Of a stretch of 64,000 nucleotides of DNA, positions 10,528-23,516 are shown piece after piece. Position 1 is the stretch's first letter, and each line of letters begins with the position of its first letter. Source of the DNA: Mycobacterium sp. (GTDB taxonomy: Bacteria > Actinomycetota > Actinomycetes > Mycobacteriales > Mycobacteriaceae); assembly GCA_020438845.1 (NCBI GenBank), contig JAGQTV010000011.1, positions 82,730 to 146,729 on the forward strand, written 5' to 3'. A program made the position numbers and the translations under genes. The notes below the pieces were generated by a model, which searched no databases, had not been told where the DNA came from, and saw nothing but the letters and a program-made list of their open reading frames with translations.

Positions 10528-11244
10528 GTGACCTACTGCATCGGCGTATTACTCGATGAGGGAATGATTTTCGCCTCGGACTCCCGCACGAATGCTGGCA
10601 TGGACAGCATCGCGAAGTTTTGCAAGATGACCGTCTTCGAGCGTCCCGGCAACCGAGTCATCGTGTTGCTCAGTTCGGGAAACCTGGCTGGAACCCAGGC
10701 TGTCGTCAGCATTCTGAAGCAACGTTGCGCCGACGGCGACGCTACCACCAACCTTTTCGGTGCCCGAACGATGTTCGACGTTCTGGTTCTGGTGACTGGT
10801 GCGATGCGCGAGATCGAGGAGCGCGACGCGGATCATCTGGAATCGTTCAACGCTTCGTTCATCGTCGGTGGGCAGATCTGCGGCGAACCGATGCGGCTGT
10901 TCCGCACCTACGCCGAGGGCAACTTCATCGAAGCCGGTACCGATACCCACCTGTTTCAGACGGGTGAAACCAAATACGGCAAGCCCATCCTCGACCGCGT
11001 TCTGACCCAAAGCACCCCACTCGCTGACGCCACCAAATGCGTTCTGGTGTCGTTTGATTCGACCATGCGCAGCAATCTGTCGGTAGGTATGCCAATCGAT
11101 CTGCTCTGCTACGAAAAGGACTCCCTCGAAGTGCGGTTGCGGCGGCGTTTCGATGTCGGCGACCCGTATTTCACTGCGCTCAGCCACGACTGGAGCGAAG
11201 GCACACGAGAGGTTTTCCGCGAGTTGCCCGCATTGAGTTGGTGA
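10528..11244 (+). CDS. Anbu-type proteasome homologue (Ntn-hydrolase)
   Basis: Resembles the ancestral-beta-subunit (Anbu, BPH-like) proteasome family, N-terminal-nucleophile peptidases that assemble into open rings. The GTG start is followed directly by Thr, so removal of fMet alone would expose the Thr1 nucleophile with no propeptide. Counting from Thr1, the proteasome catalytic Asp17 (FASDSRTNAG) and a Lys at 32 (AKFCK) are both in place. Length (238) matches the family. The gene is followed at 148 bp by a transglutaminase-like gene, a classic Anbu partner. The usual ATP-grasp and alpha-E partners are absent here. Having it in an actinobacterium, where the 20S PrcBA proteasome is standard, is notable. 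Confidence 0.85.
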   Translation: MTYCIGVLLDEGMIFASDSRTNAGMDSIAKFCKMTVFERPGNRVIVLLSSGNLAGTQAVVSILKQRCADGDATTNLFGARTMFDVLVLVTGAMREIEERDADHLESFNASFIVGGQICGEPMRLFRTYAEGNFIEAGTDTHLFQTGETKYGKPILDRVLTQSTPLADATKCVLVSFDSTMRSNLSVGMPIDLLCYEKDSLEVRLRRRFDVGDPYFTALSHDWSEGTREVFRELPALSW

Positions 11245-11392
11245 CGTTCTTCATGACGAAGGACACCTTCTTCATTACCTGTGAACCCGGCGGAAGCCAC
11301 GTACCCTCCTGCTTTCTACCGCCGTTCCGGCGACAAAAGGAGCTTGTGGATTCCCACCGATCGCAACCACATCTGACGGATACCGGAGAGCA

Positions 11393-12208
11393 ATGATGCG
11401 CATCAATGTCGGCTTCGAGATGATTTACGACTGCCCTCAGCCCACCCCGATGATTTTCAACCTCAACGTCCACTTCACCCGGGTGTCCGACCTCGTCGGC
11501 CGTGACGACCTGGTCTTCGATCCACCGGTACCGGTGGAGGCCTACCGCGACAGCTTCGGCAACTGGTGTACCCGTATCGTCGCGCCCAGAGGGCGCACGC
11601 GCATCACAGCGAATGCCGTTGTCAAAGATACCGGCCTCCCCGACCTCATCGTTCCGGACGCACAACAGATTCCGGTTCAGGATCTTCCTGTCGACACGCT
11701 CGTATACCTGCTCGGAAGCCGGTATTGCGAAACCGATCGACTGTCGGAGACCGCCTGGGACCTCTTCGAGCACGCGCCAACGGGATGGGGTCGGGTCCAA
11801 GCGATCTGCGACTACGTGCACAACCATGTGACATTCGGATACGAGTACGCCCGGGTGACACAGTCAGCGCTTGAAACCTTCGATAAACGGACCGGAGTCT
11901 GCCGCGACTTCAACCACCTTGCGGTTGCCTTCTGCCGCGCCATGAACATCCCGGCCCGCTACTGCACCGGCTACCTCGGCGACATCGGGATGGCACCGCC
12001 GTACGGTCCGATGGACTTTGCGGCCTGGTTCGAGGTCTTCCTCGGCGGGAATTGGTACACGTTCGACGCACGTAACAACACCCCGCGAATCGGCAGGGTC
12101 CTGATTGCACGGGGCCGTGACGCCGCCGATGTCGCACTGAGCAATGCATTCGGCAACAACACGTTGACCAGCTTCAGAGTGTGGACCGACGAAGTCCCGG
12201 CGGATTGA
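11393..12208 (+). CDS. transglutaminase-like protein of Anbu neighbourhood
   Basis: A 271-residue protein with an N-terminal beta-rich domain (about 1-125) and a transglutaminase core (about 130-230). The nucleophile Cys is clear at C170 in GVCRDFNHLA, and the acid Asp is D226 in FDARNN. The strand that normally carries the catalytic His as HAW reads AAW (A210), so the canonical triad is incomplete at this position. The conserved RIGRVLIARGRDAADV tail is typical of the Anbu-linked subfamily. The ATG at 11393 follows ccggagag. It is probably co-transcribed with the Anbu gene. It could act as a peptidase, an amidase or a non-catalytic binder. Confidence 0.84.
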   Translation: MMRINVGFEMIYDCPQPTPMIFNLNVHFTRVSDLVGRDDLVFDPPVPVEAYRDSFGNWCTRIVAPRGRTRITANAVVKDTGLPDLIVPDAQQIPVQDLPVDTLVYLLGSRYCETDRLSETAWDLFEHAPTGWGRVQAICDYVHNHVTFGYEYARVTQSALETFDKRTGVCRDFNHLAVAFCRAMNIPARYCTGYLGDIGMAPPYGPMDFAAWFEVFLGGNWYTFDARNNTPRIGRVLIARGRDAADVALSNAFGNNTLTSFRVWTDEVPAD

Positions 12209-12255: not shown

Positions 12256-15200
12256 TCAAGGGTTCGGGGGCGTGGGAAGTTCTGGGCAAACCGGGACATA
12301 CCCGATGTCGGCCGACACCCAGTCGTTCCACTCCTGACGGCTCATATTCTGAGTAATTTTGTCGCACAGTATCTTTGGCCACGATGCCTCTTCAGGCGCG
12401 GGCCACAGGCGGAGGGTTCCCTCGGAGTCACCCGAGATCACGCGCTGTCCGTTGGGGCTGAACCCGACGCTGGTCACGGCCCCGGAGTGGCCGCTGAACG
12501 CCGCGCCGATGGGTCGGCCCGTATCAGCAGCCCAGAGCCGAAGCGTCTTGTCGGCGCTGCCCGACACGATCCGCTGCCCTTCCGGGGAGAACGCCAGGCT
12601 GTTCACCGCGTCGGTGTGCCCGGTCATCGCCGGCCCGATGGGTTGGCCGTTGTCGGCATCCCACAAGCGCAGGGTCTGGTCCCAGCTGCCCGACACGATC
12701 CGGTGGCCGTCCGGGCTGAACGCGACACTGGACACCACGTCGGTGTGCCCGATCATCGCCGGCCCGATGGGTTGGCCGTTGTCGGCATCCCACACTCGCA
12801 CGGTTTTGTCGAAACCACCGGAGACGACGCGATGCCCGTCGGGGCTGAACGCGACAGACCACACCAGTTCGGTGTTTCCCTGCATCGGTTGGCCGATGAG
12901 TTGACCGGTGTCGGCATCCCATACCCGCAGAGCGTTGTCTGCCGCGCTCGCAGCGACGATCCGATGCCCGTCCGGGCTGAAGGCCGCCTTGATGACGATC
13001 AGGTCGGGAATGTCGGGAGGGCTGATCGGCGGCCCGATGGGCTGGCCGGTGTCGGCGTTCCACACCTGCAGCACGGCCTGCTTGTCGATGGCGAGGATCC
13101 GTTGTCCATCGGGACTGAAGGCAACCCTGGTCACTCCTGGGGTTGGCCCGGAAAGGGGGGCGCCTGCGGGCCGGCCGGTGTCAGCCTCCCATGTTCCCAC
13201 CGTGTCGCCGATCGCGGCGACCACGCGACGTCCGTCGGGGCTGAACGCCGCGCTGGAGACCGGGCCCTGACCGTTGACCAGGTCGGCGGTGTCGGAGTCC
13301 CACATTCGCACAGAATGGTCGCCGCCGCCGGAGAGGATGCGACGTCCGTCGGGGCTGAAGGCAACCGCTTGGACGTAACTCGTGTGTCCGGTGAGCGGAG
13401 CGCCGATCCGTTGGCCGGCGTCGACGTCCCAGACGATAACGGCATGGTCGGCGCTGCCCGACACCAGACGGCGGCCGTCCGGGCTGAAAGCCACTCCGTT
13501 ACCCGAACCGTTCAGGGGTTCGCCTGCAGGCTCGCGGGTCTCGGCATCCCAGAGCCGGAGCGTGTCGTTGGCGGAACTGGCGGAGGCGATCAGGTGTCCG
13601 TCGGGGCTGAACGCCACGCCGGACACCTCGTCGCGACCGTCGATCGGCGGTTCGAGCGCCTGGCCGGTCGCAGCGTCCCACAGCCGCAGCGTCCGATCCG
13701 AGCTGCCCGATACGATGCGCTGCCCGTCGGGCGAAAATGCGACGGCGTTTACCGAGTCCGTATGCCCGGTCAACGGCGGGCCGACGGGTTGCCCGGTGGA
13801 GGCGTCCCACAGCCGTAGGGTTGTGTCTGCGCTGCCCGATACGATGCGCTGCCCGTCAGGTGAAAACGCCACGCTGTGTACCGCGCCGGAGTGCCCGGTC
13901 AGCGGCTGGCCGATCTGTTGACCGGTATCGGCGTCCCACAACCGCAGCGTGTAATCCCAACTGCCTGAGACGATGCGGTGCCCATCGGGACTGAACGCCA
14001 CGCTGGTCACCACATCGGTGTGCCCGGTCATCGGAGGCCCGATGGGCTGGCCGGTGCCTGCGTTCCACCGCTGAAGCGTCTGGGCATTACCTGCCGAGAC
14101 GAGGCGCTGCCCGTCGGGGCTGAATCCGACACTGCTGACCACTGCGCCGGTGGGGATGATTTTGACCGTCTGCCGCAGGGCGGTTACGCCGGCGAACAGC
14201 GCACCGGTATCCGCCGCGGCCGGCGCGATCAAGGGTGCTGCAAGGATCTGCTGAAGCGCCCGAACATCCCCTCCGCCCTGCGTACCGGCCAGCATGGACT
14301 GTCCTTGTGACGTCAACTTCAGAGCCACCGCTTCGCGCGTCCGCGCGTCGGCCTGGCGTCGCGCGGCGGTCGCCTGAACGACACCGACAACCGCGACAAT
14401 GGCGCCGACGACCGCAACAACGGCGATCACGGCTGTCGCGGCCAGCACTCGGCGCAGGGTGCGTGAACGTTTGCGCAACACGACCGCGTGCTCCTGCGCC
14501 TGCTCCTTGGCGGCGGTTTCGGCAGCCGCGAGTTTCTCAGCGGCGTCCCGCCGGTCCTTTTCGGCTTGCAGTTCGGCTTCCCGTTGGCGCTTGTCGGCCT
14601 CCGCACGCTGATTCTCGCGCCCCTGGGAGGCGGCCAGGAAGTCACGGCAGGGTTGCAGCCGGTCCCGGAACCCCGGTTCAGCGAACAGAACCTCGGCGTC
14701 GGCCAGACGCGTGCTGTGCAGCAGCCAGGCGTCGTCGCGGTGGTTCCTCTCCCACGACAGAGCACCACGTTCCAGCAAGTCGGCATTCTTGAGAGCGTCG
14801 CGTTGCTCGGCCAACCACTGAGCCAGGTCGTCCCACTGCCGCAGCAGGCTCTCCAACGCGACCTCGACGACAACGTCACCGTCGCGGGTGTCTTTCACCA
14901 GTAATCGTTTGGCAACGAGCTTCTCGACCAGGGGACGGCTCGGCTCCGGCAGTTCGGTCCATTTGGCGACCCGTCGCATCGGCTGGTCGTTGTCGGCATT
15001 GATGGTCGCCAGCCACGGAATGAAGGCGGCACGTAACTGCCGGAGTTGGGCCTCCCGCTGCTCAGCGTCCGCGGACAAAAGGCTGTCCATCTCGGTGTGC
15101 ACGACGCTGTGGATGCCACCCATCGACAGGTACTCGGGCAGTGAGAGGGTGCCGTCACTCCCGTAATCGGCGTAAAGCCGGGCCAGTGTAAGAGCCAGCA

Positions 15201-16515
15201 GCGGCAGCGTGTCAGCGCCTTCGGTGCAGTCATCGAGCAGCCGATTGACCAAAGCGGGTTCGATCTGGATCGGTTGGCCAGCGTCGGCGGCCCGCGCGGC
15301 GGGGCCGACGATCACCTCCTTGAACTGCGTGCGCGGCATCGGCTTGAGTTCGTCGAACAACACCGTCCCGACACCGGCCAGCTGCGCAGCGGTCTGCAAC
15401 GCCTGATAGCGGTCGGTACGGATCGTGACAGCGACGATCAGACCCAACGACTCCGACTCACTGGTGCCTGCGCCGGCCAGTTCGGCGATCAGATCGAGGA
15501 ACAGTGCGGCCTCCGAACCGGCATCGGAGCCGAACAATTCCTCAGCCTGATCCAACGGCAGCACCAGGGTCGGTAACGGCATCTCGCCGGCCTCGGTCAG
15601 CAGTCGGGTGCTCGCCGCCTGTTGCACCTCCCGAAGCCACTGAGCTACTCGGGCACCCTCGCCACCCAGGCAGGCTTGTTTGATCTCGCCCAGCCCGGGT
15701 CCTGTCAACCCCATCCGAGTGCGGGTGGCGTGAATCGCACGGGCGAGACCGGTGTCCCCGGTCAGCACGTTGCGTTGCGGCCGGACGATCTGAAGCAGTA
15801 CGAACTCGCGGTCGTCACGGCGTAGCCGCGGCAACAGACCGGCTCGGAGGAATGAGGACTTACCGGTTCCCGATGGGCCCAGAACGACGAAGAGTGTCTC
15901 CAATTCGGATCTGCGCATCCCACGCAACGCATCCAATCCGCGCAGGATCTGGGCGTCGCGGCCGAAGAACACCGCAGCGTCGGCCTCTTCGAGCGGCTCC
16001 CATCCCCGATATGGCGCGCGTTCGGGGTCATTAGGTGGCGGCCACACGAATGACTCCGCGCCGATGCCTGCTCCGACTATCCCCTCCCGCAACCGGTACA
16101 GGCCCTCGGAAAGGAACGTGACTGGTGCTGCGCCGTCACCGATGTCGACTGCGGTGGTTGGGCCCGAACCGAACAGTTCGATCTGTTGCCATTCCCGGGT
16201 CGGGTCGTCCCCGGTGAGTGGGCCGATTCGGGCGGAAAAGATCTTCTTGTTCAGATACTCCGCGAACCGGTATTCGGTCTTGCACTCCGCGGATGACTCC
16301 CAGTTTGGCGACAGTAGGCAGATCACCGCCTCGCATCGCGTGCTCGCCTGCCGCAACGCGTCCTTCCACCGCACACCAGACCGAATCCCGCCATCGCGAT
16401 CCAGGTCCAGGAAGATTTCGTTGGCCAACGGCGGTTCCTGGCCGATCAGCCACTGCCGCAATGCAATCGCCTGCCGACTGTCCCGGCTGGAGTGGCTGAG
16501 AAAAATCCGCGACAT
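12256..16515 (-). CDS. TIR-STAND-WD40 signalling NTPase
   Basis: A 1419-residue multidomain protein. Residues 1-about 140 form a TIR domain. In its SPNWESSAECKTEY segment the S-x-x-C-x-x-E pattern keeps the Glu expected of NAD-cleaving TIRs. Residues about 185-560 form a STAND-type ATPase with Walker A GPSGTGKSS (212-220) and a Walker B-like LVLPLDQAEELF. A winged-helix region and a Lys/Glu-rich coiled coil (about 635-680) precede one strong membrane segment (about 690-715). Then come 14 WD40 repeats (about 790-1385), enough for two seven-blade propellers, and a short C-tail with two Cys. The layout fits a STAND sensor: WD40 binds the trigger, ATPase oligomerises, TIR acts. It lies 177 bp downstream of the RyR-TrkA-like gene on the same strand. 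Confidence 0.92.
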   Translation of the reverse strand: MSRIFLSHSSRDSRQAIALRQWLIGQEPPLANEIFLDLDRDGGIRSGVRWKDALRQASTRCEAVICLLSPNWESSAECKTEYRFAEYLNKKIFSARIGPLTGDDPTREWQQIELFGSGPTTAVDIGDGAAPVTFLSEGLYRLREGIVGAGIGAESFVWPPPNDPERAPYRGWEPLEEADAAVFFGRDAQILRGLDALRGMRRSELETLFVVLGPSGTGKSSFLRAGLLPRLRRDDREFVLLQIVRPQRNVLTGDTGLARAIHATRTRMGLTGPGLGEIKQACLGGEGARVAQWLREVQQAASTRLLTEAGEMPLPTLVLPLDQAEELFGSDAGSEAALFLDLIAELAGAGTSESESLGLIVAVTIRTDRYQALQTAAQLAGVGTVLFDELKPMPRTQFKEVIVGPAARAADAGQPIQIEPALVNRLLDDCTEGADTLPLLALTLARLYADYGSDGTLSLPEYLSMGGIHSVVHTEMDSLLSADAEQREAQLRQLRAAFIPWLATINADNDQPMRRVAKWTELPEPSRPLVEKLVAKRLLVKDTRDGDVVVEVALESLLRQWDDLAQWLAEQRDALKNADLLERGALSWERNHRDDAWLLHSTRLADAEVLFAEPGFRDRLQPCRDFLAASQGRENQRAEADKRQREAELQAEKDRRDAAEKLAAAETAAKEQAQEHAVVLRKRSRTLRRVLAATAVIAVVAVVGAIVAVVGVVQATAARRQADARTREAVALKLTSQGQSMLAGTQGGGDVRALQQILAAPLIAPAAADTGALFAGVTALRQTVKIIPTGAVVSSVGFSPDGQRLVSAGNAQTLQRWNAGTGQPIGPPMTGHTDVVTSVAFSPDGHRIVSGSWDYTLRLWDADTGQQIGQPLTGHSGAVHSVAFSPDGQRIVSGSADTTLRLWDASTGQPVGPPLTGHTDSVNAVAFSPDGQRIVSGSSDRTLRLWDAATGQALEPPIDGRDEVSGVAFSPDGHLIASASSANDTLRLWDAETREPAGEPLNGSGNGVAFSPDGRRLVSGSADHAVIVWDVDAGQRIGAPLTGHTSYVQAVAFSPDGRRILSGGGDHSVRMWDSDTADLVNGQGPVSSAAFSPDGRRVVAAIGDTVGTWEADTGRPAGAPLSGPTPGVTRVAFSPDGQRILAIDKQAVLQVWNADTGQPIGPPISPPDIPDLIVIKAAFSPDGHRIVAASAADNALRVWDADTGQLIGQPMQGNTELVWSVAFSPDGHRVVSGGFDKTVRVWDADNGQPIGPAMIGHTDVVSSVAFSPDGHRIVSGSWDQTLRLWDADNGQPIGPAMTGHTDAVNSLAFSPEGQRIVSGSADKTLRLWAADTGRPIGAAFSGHSGAVTSVGFSPNGQRVISGDSEGTLRLWPAPEEASWPKILCDKITQNMSRQEWNDWVSADIGYVPVCPELPTPPNP

Positions 16516-16692
16516 GCGATCACCGGGTCCTGGGCATTACTGACATTTGCCAGTCCGACATCTGCCACTCCGACGCGCGCAGCCGTTGACCGGCGAACCG
16601 GCCCGGGTTGTTGCCCCGTCGCACCATACCGGTAGTCGAACCGCCCTCGCGCCATCCGATACCCGGCTGAGGGCGAAACCGGAAATCCTCGT

Positions 16693-19059
16693 TCACCACG
16701 GCAGCGGCCCCTCATAACGTTTCCGGAACTGTTCACCCGGAACGGGCCACTGTTCGCCTTGCTCACCTGCCACGATCCAGTCGCCATCAGCGGCAGTCGC
16801 AGAACCCTCGAGGGTGTCGACGTTCTCCCCGGCCCGCGCGGGGCGGGCCCTGACGAAACCGGTTCGCCGCCAGCGATCCCCGCCGACATGCTGGTGGGTA
16901 GCCCGAAAGATGCCGTCGCGCACCGACCAGGTCTTCCCCGTGCCGTCGTGAATTGCCCAGTCGCCGGCGTCTCCGTGCATAACGTTCCCTGCCTCGGAAG
17001 TCCACGTCCATGCGTCGTTCTGTTGCTGAGCGACAACCGTCCCGGCCCGTCGATACCGCTGCCATACTGGCCTGGACCGGTAGCCCAGCTTCGCAAGCTC
17101 CAACAGTGTGTCGGCCAGGCTCTGCAGCGCGGTCTTCTTGAAGGACGGTGTGTGCTCGGCGGCGTCCCAGTCCAGCAGCTTGTCGTGGATCCGGCGCTCG
17201 TCGTCGCGGGTCGGCCCGTACCGCCACCCCGCTTCTCGGTAGAAGCGGCACCAGTCTTGGTGCTCGGCGCGTGCCATCGCGATCGCGGAATCGGCGTCAA
17301 AGCCGAGGAGCCTCAGCGTCTCGAGTGGCTCGGACCGTTGGTACATGTCAGATTCCGGAGGCGGCGCCGCCTGGCCGGCCGCGCTGTTCCAGCTGTGTCC
17401 GCCCATCGCCTCAACAATCCAGAGAATGTTGCGTACCTGTCGCCGGTTCGACTCGCGATGGAACTCGTCTAGTACAGCCCATGGCAGGGTTGCTGGGGTC
17501 CGGTGGCCGGTCTCGGCGGCGAACCTGTCGGCGAAGCGCTCGTGGATGAGCCTCGCTGCCCGCTCCCAGGAATCCTGCGCCATACCGGCTGGCAGATCCA
17601 TCCCGAGGCCAAAGGTGCGCAGCCGACCCACAATAGGGGCCCGGTCCTCCTGATGCCTGGCGTTGGGATCCCAGGCGTAGATCAGCATTGCGGGAAACCG
17701 TGCGGCCAGCCGTGTCCCCATCATGGTGTCGGCCGCAGCCGCGGCGCTGTCCACCAGGATCACGACCTGCGAATCGGCGTCGGCGTCCACCAAGTCCGTG
17801 AGCACCGGCACCGACGGCCGCTGCAGCACCACCGCGATGTCCGGGCGGCTTGCGCCCAGACCGAGCTGGTTCTCGTGGAACTCGTGGTCTCGCAGATACT
17901 CCTCGGCGTTGTCGTCGACGAGGGTCAGTGTTGGTAATCCGGCATCCTCGGGGTTGGCGCGGTAGGAGCGTTCCCGATGGCGTTGCGCAATGTCGGCGCA
18001 CAGCGCCAGAGTCAGCGGAGATGAGCCGCAGACCACGATCCGGGTCACCGTCGGGTCCGCGGTGACCTCCTCGAGCAATCGGCGGGCCGTGACTTCGTAC
18101 TTGCCGACCGCGTCTGCCGCCCAGCGGCTATCGGATCCACCGAATTGCCGGGCACGCCAGGCCTCGGCTTGCCAAGGGTCGTCGATCCGGACAATGAGAG
18201 GCACTCGCCGCCTTGCTGGGATGGCGCTCATACAGCGATTGATCATCTCGAGACGCGAAAGATTCGCCACCGGGTCAGGCGAGAGAAGGTACAGCCGGTC
18301 CAGCTTGCGCCAGACAGGCAACGATTCCAATGTCTCAGGCCGATCGAAATCGACAACGACGATTCGGGCACCCTGTTGGCGGGCTTCCTGGACGGCCGGG
18401 ATATCGGGGGTTTCGGTGATCACCACGAGTCGGCTTGTCGTTTCCAGAGTATTTCGGACCGCGTTGACCATCGAACGCGCGTCATCGTCAACGCCGACAA
18501 CCGCACTCACTGACTTGTCCGTATGAACCCGGATCCGATCGGCCTGCGAACGCAGCAGCGCGATCACCACGCCGCCGATGCCCACGAGGATCGCCGCGAG
18601 AGCGGATAGCCGGGCTATCTCCAGGGCGATCGGGGTGGGCGTCGGACAAGTGGTGCCGGAGATGGATTGGTCACCTGTTCCGCCTTTGAGTAGACCGATT
18701 GTCCACATCAGCGGTGTGTAGAAATACGGGTTCGCCGCCCCGTGGCAATTCCAGTACGAACTCAGCCCCAGCACGAAGTTCGCCACGGTCAGGGTCATGA
18801 CGAACCGCACTGTGGTGGTTCCGGCATGACCAGTTCGACCGCCGACCACGGCGAGTGCACCGGCCGCGACGACTATCGCCACCACAATCGTGATCGTCAG
18901 TGAGGACCCAGGCTGGCCGAACCAACGCAGGGCGGGCGGCATGCGCTCCCGCATCCCGGGGCGCAGAGCCAACGCCGCGAGGAGGAACACGACGGCCACC
19001 GCCAATGAACGCGACACCCATCGAAGAATCTCGAAGACATTGCGCTTGCTTGGCCCCAC
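16693..19059 (-). CDS. membrane TrkA_N-like/RyR/PGDYG protein
   Basis: A 788-residue protein. Four hydrophobic segments (about 17-35, 52-73, 85-103, 151-170) precede a TrkA_N-like Rossmann domain (about 183-275) whose glycine loop is replaced by VVGVDDDA. A second Rossmann-like unit starts at VTRIVVCGSS (about 338). At about 590-650 is a RyR domain (EHQDWCRFYREAGWRYGP, then RDDERRIHDKLLDWD). The C-terminus (about 680-788) holds two PGDYG-like units (GDWAIHDGTGKTWSV and GDWIVAGEQGEQWPV). RyR domains in bacteria have been proposed to sense nucleotide-derived ligands. The gene is immediately upstream of, and co-oriented with, the TIR-STAND gene. A membrane effector gated by a TIR product is the natural inference. 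No pore helix or selectivity filter is visible. Confidence 0.85.
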   Translation of the reverse strand: MGPSKRNVFEILRWVSRSLAVAVVFLLAALALRPGMRERMPPALRWFGQPGSSLTITIVVAIVVAAGALAVVGGRTGHAGTTTVRFVMTLTVANFVLGLSSYWNCHGAANPYFYTPLMWTIGLLKGGTGDQSISGTTCPTPTPIALEIARLSALAAILVGIGGVVIALLRSQADRIRVHTDKSVSAVVGVDDDARSMVNAVRNTLETTSRLVVITETPDIPAVQEARQQGARIVVVDFDRPETLESLPVWRKLDRLYLLSPDPVANLSRLEMINRCMSAIPARRRVPLIVRIDDPWQAEAWRARQFGGSDSRWAADAVGKYEVTARRLLEEVTADPTVTRIVVCGSSPLTLALCADIAQRHRERSYRANPEDAGLPTLTLVDDNAEEYLRDHEFHENQLGLGASRPDIAVVLQRPSVPVLTDLVDADADSQVVILVDSAAAAADTMMGTRLAARFPAMLIYAWDPNARHQEDRAPIVGRLRTFGLGMDLPAGMAQDSWERAARLIHERFADRFAAETGHRTPATLPWAVLDEFHRESNRRQVRNILWIVEAMGGHSWNSAAGQAAPPPESDMYQRSEPLETLRLLGFDADSAIAMARAEHQDWCRFYREAGWRYGPTRDDERRIHDKLLDWDAAEHTPSFKKTALQSLADTLLELAKLGYRSRPVWQRYRRAGTVVAQQQNDAWTWTSEAGNVMHGDAGDWAIHDGTGKTWSVRDGIFRATHQHVGGDRWRRTGFVRARPARAGENVDTLEGSATAADGDWIVAGEQGEQWPVPGEQFRKRYEGPLPW

Positions 19060-21833: not shown

Positions 21834-23516
21834 ATGAGCGGTCACATCATCGTCTACGGAGATGACGCACTGGCAATGCAGATCACCAATGAGTTCACCG
21901 ACGCCGGGCTGAGCGTGGTCTCCCTCCGCTCCCCCGCCGACCTACGCGGGTCCGGAGTTGTTTCCGCGACTGCCGTCGTGGCGGCGTCCGGAGACGACGC
22001 GGTGAATCTCGAGGTTGCTTTACTTGCTCGAAGAGCCAACCCATGGACCCGGGTGGTGGCGCGTATCGCCAACCCGGTGCTGAACAAGGCCATGAAGGCC
22101 GACCATGGGCCGGGAGCGGTACTCGATGTAGCCGACCTGGCCGCGCCGTCGGTAGTGGAGGCCCTGCTCGAGAGGACGGCTCACCACATCAACGTCGGCG
22201 AAGAGGACTTCGTGGTGTCCGGCGCTCCGGCACCCCGGGATGGGACGCTGCGGGAAATTTACGGGCGGCTGGCACCGGTGGCCGTCATTCGCGGCGAGGA
22301 CAACCCGAACCCAGGCGAGGTGATCGCCTGCCCGCCGTTAGATCTTCCAGTCAGGCAAGGCGATTTCACCTCGATGATCGGCCGCGCTGAAGACCTTGCA
22401 GCCCAGGGCTTTCGGGCGCCACGGGCAACCGAGACAACGGACCGAACGCGTCCGCTCCCGGGGCGGCTCGTGGACGCGGTTCGAGCGTTCAACGATGACC
22501 TCAACCCGAACTTCTTCCGTGCGCTGGCGGTGTTGGGGGTGTTGCTGGTGGGCTCGACGTTCGTGCTGCATTTCGGCTACCGCAATCCCCCCATGAGCTG
22601 GATGGATGCCATCTATTTCTCCACCGAGACCCTGGCCACCGTCGGGTTCGGCGACTTCAACTTCCTGCAGCAACCGCTGTGGCTTCGGATGTGGAGCTTG
22701 CTGATGATGCTCGGGGGTGTCGCGACCATCGCCGTCGTGGTGGCCTTTATCGCCGACGTGCTGGTGTCCCGCCGGCTCGCCCAGGCGGCCAGCCGTCAGA
22801 AGGTGCGCCACCTGAGTGGGCACTACGTCGTGGTCGGTCTCGGCTCATTCGGCATCCGGGTGGCCGGCATGCTCAAGCAGGCCGGCTGCCCCGTGGTGGT
22901 GATCGAACGCAACGAAGCCAACCGGTATCTGGCCGAAGCCGCCGCGCTGAAAATACCGGTTTTGCTCGGCGACGCGACGCTACGCAACACCCTCGACACG
23001 GCACGCGTGAAACACGCACGGGCGGTGGCGGTGCTCACCGAGGATGACATGGTCAACATCGAAACCGCGCTGGTGATGCGGGAGATGATGGGACCCGACG
23101 AGACTCCGGACGGCAGAAAGACTCCCATTGTGGTGCGGATCTATGATCGTGACCTCGGCGACGCCGTGGCTCACCGACACGACTTCAGCCACGTGCGCTC
23201 CACAGTCGATCTGGCCACCCCGTGGTTCGTCGGCGCTGCGATGGGTCTGGAGGTGCTCGGCACCTTCTCGGTCGGACAACGCTCCTTCATGGTGGGCGGA
23301 TTACGGGTTGCCCCCGGCAGCGAGCTCGACGGGATCCGAATGGGTGAGGTGTCCACCCGAACGCGGGCGATCGCGTTGACCCGGTCCGGCATGGCGATGA
23401 CGTTGCATCCGAACCGCGAAACCACATTGCAGGCCAACGACATTGCCTACCTGGTGGGGCCCTACCACGAGCTGCTGGAGGCGCTGCGTCGCGGACAACG
23501 CGGCAAGACCGGATAG
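21834..23516 (+). CDS. potassium channel with two RCK/TrkA domains
   Basis: A 560-residue two-TM potassium channel flanked by two regulator-of-conductance domains. The N-terminal RCK (about 1-130) lacks a clean GxGxxG. The pore region (about 230-310) has two membrane helices and the TVGFGD selectivity filter (about 270), a slight variant of TVGYGD. The C-terminal RCK (about 325-430, VVGLGSFGIRVA) keeps a dinucleotide loop, and an RCK_C-like segment finishes the chain. It resembles bacterial channels of the Kch/CglK style with an additional N-terminal RCK. It is divergent from glgP with 157 bp between the starts. Confidence 0.9.
   Translation: MSGHIIVYGDDALAMQITNEFTDAGLSVVSLRSPADLRGSGVVSATAVVAASGDDAVNLEVALLARRANPWTRVVARIANPVLNKAMKADHGPGAVLDVADLAAPSVVEALLERTAHHINVGEEDFVVSGAPAPRDGTLREIYGRLAPVAVIRGEDNPNPGEVIACPPLDLPVRQGDFTSMIGRAEDLAAQGFRAPRATETTDRTRPLPGRLVDAVRAFNDDLNPNFFRALAVLGVLLVGSTFVLHFGYRNPPMSWMDAIYFSTETLATVGFGDFNFLQQPLWLRMWSLLMMLGGVATIAVVVAFIADVLVSRRLAQAASRQKVRHLSGHYVVVGLGSFGIRVAGMLKQAGCPVVVIERNEANRYLAEAAALKIPVLLGDATLRNTLDTARVKHARAVAVLTEDDMVNIETALVMREMMGPDETPDGRKTPIVVRIYDRDLGDAVAHRHDFSHVRSTVDLATPWFVGAAMGLEVLGTFSVGQRSFMVGGLRVAPGSELDGIRMGEVSTRTRAIALTRSGMAMTLHPNRETTLQANDIAYLVGPYHELLEALRRGQRGKTG

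Follow-up and report, generated by a model that had tools for sequence, protein, structure and literature searches.

We analysed a pair of genes in a 64,000-nt stretch of Mycobacterium sp. DNA (hereafter the window; contig JAGQTV010000011.1), where a protein with an enzyme-type TIR domain, P0001, is encoded beside a membrane protein with a ryanodine receptor (RyR) domain, P0002. A first-pass annotation had described two large co-oriented genes 177 bp apart, and both open reading frames (ORFs) lie on the minus strand with this spacing (Table 1). The genome carrying the window (4.53 Mb in 118 contigs) contains a single RyR match and a single TIR_2 match, which are P0002 and P0001, respectively. 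From the recurrence of this arrangement in other genomes we consider it very likely that the two genes work together.

P0001 matches TIR_2 (PF13676) at amino acids (aa) 4-115 (E = 1.9e-10; 41.7 bits, cut-off 28), and at the position of its Glu81 an alignment of 97 TIR domains has Glu in all but one. An nSTAND1 match (E = 5.4e-66; 224 bits, cut-off 27.1) includes the Walker A sequence GPSGTGKS, and a WD40 match (E = 1.2e-125) covers a region in which the motif FSP(D/E/N)G occurs 14 times. Hydropathy predicts one membrane helix. The TIR domain with its NADase-type Glu, the Walker A ATPase, the single membrane helix and the 14 WD40 repeats reported earlier were all recovered.

The AlphaFold model of P0002 (predicted local distance difference test, pLDDT, 86.6) contains four long N-terminal helices plus a short one, followed by a pair of Rossmann-type domains and, at the C-terminus, a pair of beta units. 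It bears out the earlier assignment of four membrane segments, of which hydropathy alone finds three in P0002, yet four in most relatives checked. The RyR domain reported for this gene is confirmed by Pfam (PF02026, aa 594-661; 35.6 bits, cut-off 27.4), as are the PGDYG-like units by a match at aa 755-783 (27.4 bits, cut-off 27) and the two beta units of the model. Five loci (L088, L091, L093, L094 and L100) encode the PGDYG part in a gene of its own on the other side of the TIR gene, and its role may accordingly be separable. The region annotated as TrkA_N-like scored 14.7 bits, under its cut-off of 23.8, and the model favours an interpretation as two RCK-type domains in tandem. Among the fold-search matches are a TrkA structure with ATP-gamma-S and a KTN structure with NAD+.

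Table 1. Features of the P0001-P0002 locus and neighbouring genes (positions in the window; TM, transmembrane)
Feature	Residues	Coordinates	Strand	Basis or remark
P0001, TIR-nSTAND1-TM-WD40	1419 aa	12256..16515	-	proposed sensor and signal maker
TIR domain, catalytic-type Glu81	1-150	16066..16515	-	TIR_2 match
nSTAND1 ATPase, Walker A at aa 213	168-595	14731..16014	-	profile match
Single membrane helix between STAND and WD40 parts	695-713	14377..14433	-	hydropathy
WD40 repeats, 14 motifs, proposed sensor		12403..14154	-	profile and motif count
P0002, 4TM-RCK-RCK-RyR-PGDYG	788 aa	16693..19059	-	proposed receptor and effector
Membrane part, four helices	5-180	18520..19047	-	AlphaFold model
Short helix and loop ahead of last membrane helix, possible pore	114-124 (helix)	within 18520..19047	-	AlphaFold; pore role inferred
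First RCK-like Rossmann domain	183-335	18055..18513	-	AlphaFold, fold search
Second RCK-like Rossmann domain	339-495	17575..18045	-	AlphaFold, fold search
Repeat12-like tandem RyR module	497-659	17083..17571	-	Pfam RyR is its second half and holds H600, W603, H625
Two PGDYG-like beta units	661-787	16699..17079	-	Pfam and AlphaFold
Proteasome-like and transglutaminase genes		10528-12208		adjoin the RyR locus
Potassium-channel gene, TrkA/Ion_trans_2		21834-23516		ordinary type; 2.8 kb upstream of RyR gene, divergent

As a whole, the P0002 model resembles an RCK-gated channel, with gating rings like those of GsuK, TrkA and CASTOR, to which a RyR Repeat12-like module has been added. In the full model a helix-pore helix-helix order precedes the RCK domains, and the membrane part and both RCK domains are kept in 44 aligned homologues. 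As in GsuK, MthK, Slo1/Slo2 and CASTOR/DMI1, a membrane helix runs straight into tandem RCK domains, while P0002 differs from these channels in its two extra N-terminal helices and in the added RyR and PGDYG modules. Several results weigh against a channel. Foldseek TM-scores are low (GsuK, 0.21/0.38 at a root-mean-square deviation, rmsd, of 16 A), and long-range alignments to GsuK and MthK gave an rmsd of 10-16 A. The isolated pore part folds poorly (pLDDT 67; predicted TM-score 0.38) and for this reason was not taken into the fold search. The selectivity signature of potassium channels is of the GYG type. It is absent from P0002, whose loop reads KGGTGD with only G126 invariant among the 44 aligned rows, and PADLOC contains no model for P0002. 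The protein earlier designated a membrane effector looks like an RCK-type channel, and its action as an effector is predicted.

In order to determine how often RyR and TIR genes occur together, RyR relatives were collected in one scan of 84,980 species genomes. The scan found 105, and the best 80 were kept as loci (L numbers). TIR genes at these loci were searched for with a profile built from nine TIR partners; it was thus trained on TIR domains of RyR loci, and some training genomes are of the same species as scored loci. Pfam confirmed TIR_2 in representative partners. A TIR gene was present within 5 kb in 70 of the 80 loci and within 1.5 kb in 67, so that the recurrent pairing, which had been named beforehand as a test, was strongly borne out. 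The nearest partner was TIR-PknH_C or its TIR-middle part in 51 loci, TIR-STAND-WD40 in 13 and TIR-WD40 in 2, which leaves 4 with another or no assigned type; on inspection, these four were two TIR-WD40, one TIR-DeoRC and one assigned by hand to PknH. Five of the ten TIR-less loci end at contig ends (L046, L074, L090, L106 and L115); the cut neighbour in L074 is similar to P0001 in its STAND part, and a patatin gene is present in L090. Two results run counter to a tight linkage. The other five TIR-less loci (L054, L059, L098, L104 and L118) have at least 7 kb on both sides, although the genome of L098 has a further RyR copy, L062, which is accompanied by a TIR gene. In addition, a related family with two membrane helices (2TM RCK-RyR), which also served as a control of the profile, has a TIR gene near only 5 of its 23 loci.

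We also examined whole genomes (G numbers). Among 14 RyR-bearing genomes of the genus, which contain 27 TIR_2 matches at 1 to 6 each, all 14 have one within 7 kb of the RyR gene. By our own arithmetic, with about two TIR genes per genome, chance would place a TIR gene within that distance in some 0.5% of genomes. In favour of chance or passive neighbours without a joint function, the loci share common ancestry and their counts are not independent. Against it, the 14 genomes differ in TIR type and orientation; a chance neighbourhood is very improbable and could be upheld only if the linkage counts were in error. Five genomes of other genera were left out of this set. G001 has one RyR locus with a TIR gene and one without, G257 has a TIR-LRR partner, G220 has a PGDYG-only match with an adjacent TIR gene, and G243 and G274 have partial matches and no TIR gene. 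We found the RyR protein in 16 of 301 genomes of the family, some with partial matches only, and in 8 of 396 of the phylum, two of them weak; PF02026 itself is found in 37 of 298 genomes of the order. Its spread is patchy and mainly mycobacterial. One contig (L200, from G124:C110) combines a RyR gene with a fragmentary 2TM RCK-RyR gene, a patatin gene and at least four TIR_2 matches, and is a possible island.

The type of TIR partner has changed repeatedly. A quick tree was made of 94 RyR proteins, 91 of them distinct; it has long branches, and five of its labels were assigned manually. On this tree the partner type changes at least 11 times, rows without a TIR gene being left out, compared with a minimum of six for seven labels. 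The partners carry the Pfam domains PknH_C, nSTAND1-WD40, WD40, NACHT/NPHP3, LRR and DeoRC; PknH_C is a sensor domain of mycobacterial kinases. The WD40 part, earlier proposed to detect the trigger, remains a candidate sensor in the window, although it is merely one among several exchangeable sensor parts. The TIR-PknH_C pair of slow-growing mycobacteria has for the most part been passed on as a single block, forming one clade of 50 rows. A TIR-TM-PknH_C protein adjoins the RyR gene in L023, L024, L029, L030 and most of L041-L111. The 2TM RCK-RyR family (L158-L180) comes from related actinobacteria; its members are about 600 aa long, with two N-terminal hydrophobic helices and RyR-like repeats, and in two members analysed with Pfam both TrkA_N and RyR exceed their cut-offs. 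Although 18 of its 23 loci are without a nearby TIR gene, the others adjoin TIR-WD40, TIR, TIR-CD225 or TIR-Septum_form genes, and in L175 the partner is a TIR-STAND-WD40 protein 58.9% identical to P0001.

The pairing is not symmetrical. TIR-STAND matches occur at 17 places in 14 of 301 family genomes, and a RyR channel gene is near 6 of these places (5 genomes). The match in G267 is without the TIR part. The 11 places without a RyR neighbour count against the proposed pairing, and on this ground we rejected a pairing that is obligatory in both directions. Likewise, TIR-PknH_C matches that include the TIR part lie at the RyR locus in 6 of 9 places and elsewhere in 3, with an extra copy without a RyR gene in both G239 and G297. 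Because both TIR types occur away from the RyR gene as well, the RyR protein looks like a dependent receiver. We also considered a reversed order, in which the RCK/RyR membrane protein would sense an ion or nucleotide disturbance and activate the TIR NADase by contact, the output being NAD+ depletion. RCK domains bind nucleotides and ions, the fold matches include nucleotide-bound TrkA and KTN, and both proteins are predicted to be membrane-anchored. However, the TIR partners already include various sensor domains, and it is the RyR protein that stays constant, as would suit a common receiver better than a common sensor. We regard the reversed order as unlikely.

Phage proteins give an indication of what the RyR module might bind. 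A preprint (PMC13232231) reports that phage RyR domains bind or cleave 2'/3'cADPR (cADPR, cyclic ADP-ribose), that a mycobacteriophage RyR-domain enzyme, RyDEP, destroys cADPR signals and that RyR homologues of phages serve as sponges, the signals being bound by 6 of the 8 that were tested. In the same work, RyDEP is assayed only against Bacillus Thoeris because, according to the authors, mycobacteria lack tools for an easy characterisation of Thoeris. PDB 35tm_A, an entry titled only as a RyR-domain protein, is very probably RyDEP, because it is the closest solved relative of gp81 of the Mycobacterium chelonae phage Aegeus (259.8 bits) and because the residue numbering fits. The gp81 gene (L186:1285-1695) lies within an NAD-synthesis-like operon, between a phosphoribosyl pyrophosphate transferase gene and a nicotinate ribosyltransferase gene. 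In another locus (L185:8426-10952), the gene of a RyR protein of only 100 aa overlaps that of a TIR protein of 748 aa, in which PNP_UDP is weakly matched.

The ligand contacts of RyDEP, H75, W78 and H100, correspond to H600, W603 and H625 in P0002, which are kept in 41, 44 and 44 of 44 aligned rows, respectively. Its catalytic acid, Asp117, corresponds to K641, K642 or A644 depending on which of three alignments is used, and with none of them is there an Asp or Glu at aa 636-649; P0002 therefore fits binding without cleavage. Across the family, the equivalent position is Asp in 0 of 44 rows at 644 (alignment anchored at the helix end) and in 11 of 44 at 642 (ungapped), while the third alignment places it at 641. 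An Asp or Glu occurs within 640-646 in 16 of 44 rows. A RyDEP-like glycosidase was accordingly set aside for P0002, the acid being missing in the protein of the window and its presence family-wide being unsure. The earlier proposal that the RyR domain is a nucleotide receptor is plausible from the published RyDEP biochemistry and from the kept residues; ligand binding by P0002 is predicted.

A RyR domain that binds need not be a switch, since related phage proteins bind as sponges. The module might instead be a brake that soaks up leaky product of a TIR protein that is toxic by itself through NAD+ loss. Besides the sponges, the TIR-STAND genes without a RyR neighbour agree with a brake, because a TIR protein that occurs without a RyR gene may act alone. 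A sponge needs neither a membrane part nor two RCK domains, yet both are kept throughout the aligned homologues, and within the P0002 family it is less common for a RyR gene to be without a TIR gene near by than to have one, which a receiver would lead one to expect. We think a brake improbable. More likely than not, the RyR module is what the TIR product acts upon.

We also compared the membrane layout of the TIR partners by hydropathy. One hydrophobic helix separates the TIR domain from the sensor in 53 of 54 TIR-PknH_C proteins (the remaining one has two), in 16 of 17 TIR-STAND-WD40 proteins (the remaining ORF is cut), in 4 of 4 TIR-WD40 proteins and in 5 of 13 other TIR proteins. With the TIR domain on the inner side, the sensor parts would lie outside the membrane. 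The charge bias fits this orientation for the STAND-WD40 partners, with 4.3 K/R before the helix and 2.0 after it, and is uninformative for TIR-PknH_C (2.5 and 2.3). Most TIR partners are predicted to have a Toll-like layout. In 10 of 80 loci, mostly of the TIR-STAND-WD40 type, a full-length patatin phospholipase gene adjoins the pair (Pfam, E = 2.6e-30; PADLOC effector of the CBASS, cyclic oligonucleotide-based antiphage signalling system, type, E = 8.2e-42), and L051 has a fragment. In L088 (9950-11101) and nine further loci this CBASS-effector-like gene lies between the TIR-STAND-WD40 gene and the RyR gene. No patatin gene was found at this place in the window.

An extracytoplasmic sensor such as PknH_C or WD40 would also suit a non-immune pathway of the envelope or of ion homeostasis, with the TIR product as messenger and the channel as output, and the block inheritance of the TIR-PknH_C pair in slow-growing mycobacteria agrees with such a role. 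The patchy spread, the partner exchange and the phospholipase effector in some loci argue against it, as does the mycobacteriophage enzyme that, according to the preprint (PMC13232231), destroys the presumed signal. A non-immune pathway appears quite unlikely to us. Phage defence is the likeliest purpose, from the analogy to TIR systems and from the existence of that enzyme.

The surroundings of the locus add little. The channel gene upstream was rejected as a third member of the system since it encodes an ordinary TrkA/Ion_trans_2 protein; a second channel-like gene adjoins the RyR gene in only three other loci of the surveyed set, two of them fragments. Proteasome-like and transglutaminase genes adjoin the RyR gene in L098 (10509-12803) as in the window, judging from sequence starts compared by eye, and L098 is without a TIR gene. 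A promoter and terminator scan of the locus gave no signal above shuffles. No empty site could be defined, since in the relatives examined the two flanking genes, for a transglutaminase (3 of 41 genomes) and a glycogen phosphorylase (14 of 41), do not adjoin each other.

Among the closest known systems, Thoeris (ThsB TIR and ThsA) is similar in that a TIR enzyme lies beside a dedicated putative nucleotide receiver and parts are exchangeable. Thoeris effector types beyond SIR2-SLOG and macro exist, for example caspase-like ones. In the window, however, the TIR domain is fused to STAND-TM-WD40, and the receiver is an RCK/RyR membrane protein rather than SIR2-SLOG, macro-TM or caspase-like. At the cut-off used, the PADLOC ThsB model matched neither P0001 nor P0003 in spite of the TIR domain, and P0002 had no PADLOC match and only RyR, PGDYG and TrkA_N in Pfam, which is not the composition of a ThsA-type effector. 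Assignment to Thoeris was set aside because the receiver fits no PADLOC effector model. P0002 shares with RyDEP the PF02026 fold and the three ligand-contact equivalents, but RyDEP is a soluble phage anti-defence enzyme or sponge of about 137 aa, whereas P0002 is a bacterial membrane protein encoded beside a TIR gene and is not acidic at the Asp117 equivalent. Animal ryanodine receptors likewise have a Repeat12 module on a membrane protein; only this module is shared, pore and body being unrelated to P0002 by the searches made. In Toll-like receptors a single chain combines a sensor, one membrane helix and a TIR domain, as is predicted for the TIR partners, but in the latter the TIR domain is N-terminal (the order is reversed) and of the enzyme type and the sensors are others, so that the likeness is one of layout. 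In the literature searched, with preprints thinly covered, we found no description of a TIR-RyR channel pair and no paper on a RyR domain with TrkA in bacteria. The part that appears to be new is the receiver type, TIR nucleotide signalling itself being already known.

Gene anatomy, recurrent linkage, the RCK-like fold and the RyR module with three kept ligand residues are supported by computation, and we believe that they can be joined as follows. A trigger would be sensed by the C-terminal part of the membrane-anchored TIR protein, here the WD40 repeats; the STAND ATPase would then cluster the TIR domains, which would convert NAD+ to a cADPR-type nucleotide. This nucleotide would bind the RyR module of P0002, the two RCK domains would pass the binding on, and the four-helix membrane part would open or deform. 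The resulting ion passage would halt cell growth, most likely blocking the phage. Catalysis, ligand identity, channel opening, gating direction and the defence role are inferred here, and we only slightly favour the reading in which the passage of ions through the RyR/RCK channel is gated by a cADPR-type product of the TIR domain. cADPR has long been proposed to affect animal ryanodine receptors (PMC13232231). It is a tentative and rather doubtful thought that one bacterial gene pair is the counterpart of two animal pathways, in which a Toll-like TIR receptor would make cyclic ADP-ribose and open a channel through a Repeat12 module, with a constant receiver, swapped sensors and phage RyR enzymes or sponges directed against the signal.

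If the proposed mechanism is true, an RCK-type channel with a ryanodine-receptor module would be a new type of receiver for TIR nucleotide signals. The long-argued link between cADPR and RyR would be moved into a tractable bacterial system, and the mycobacteriophage RyR-domain enzyme RyDEP would have a natural host target.
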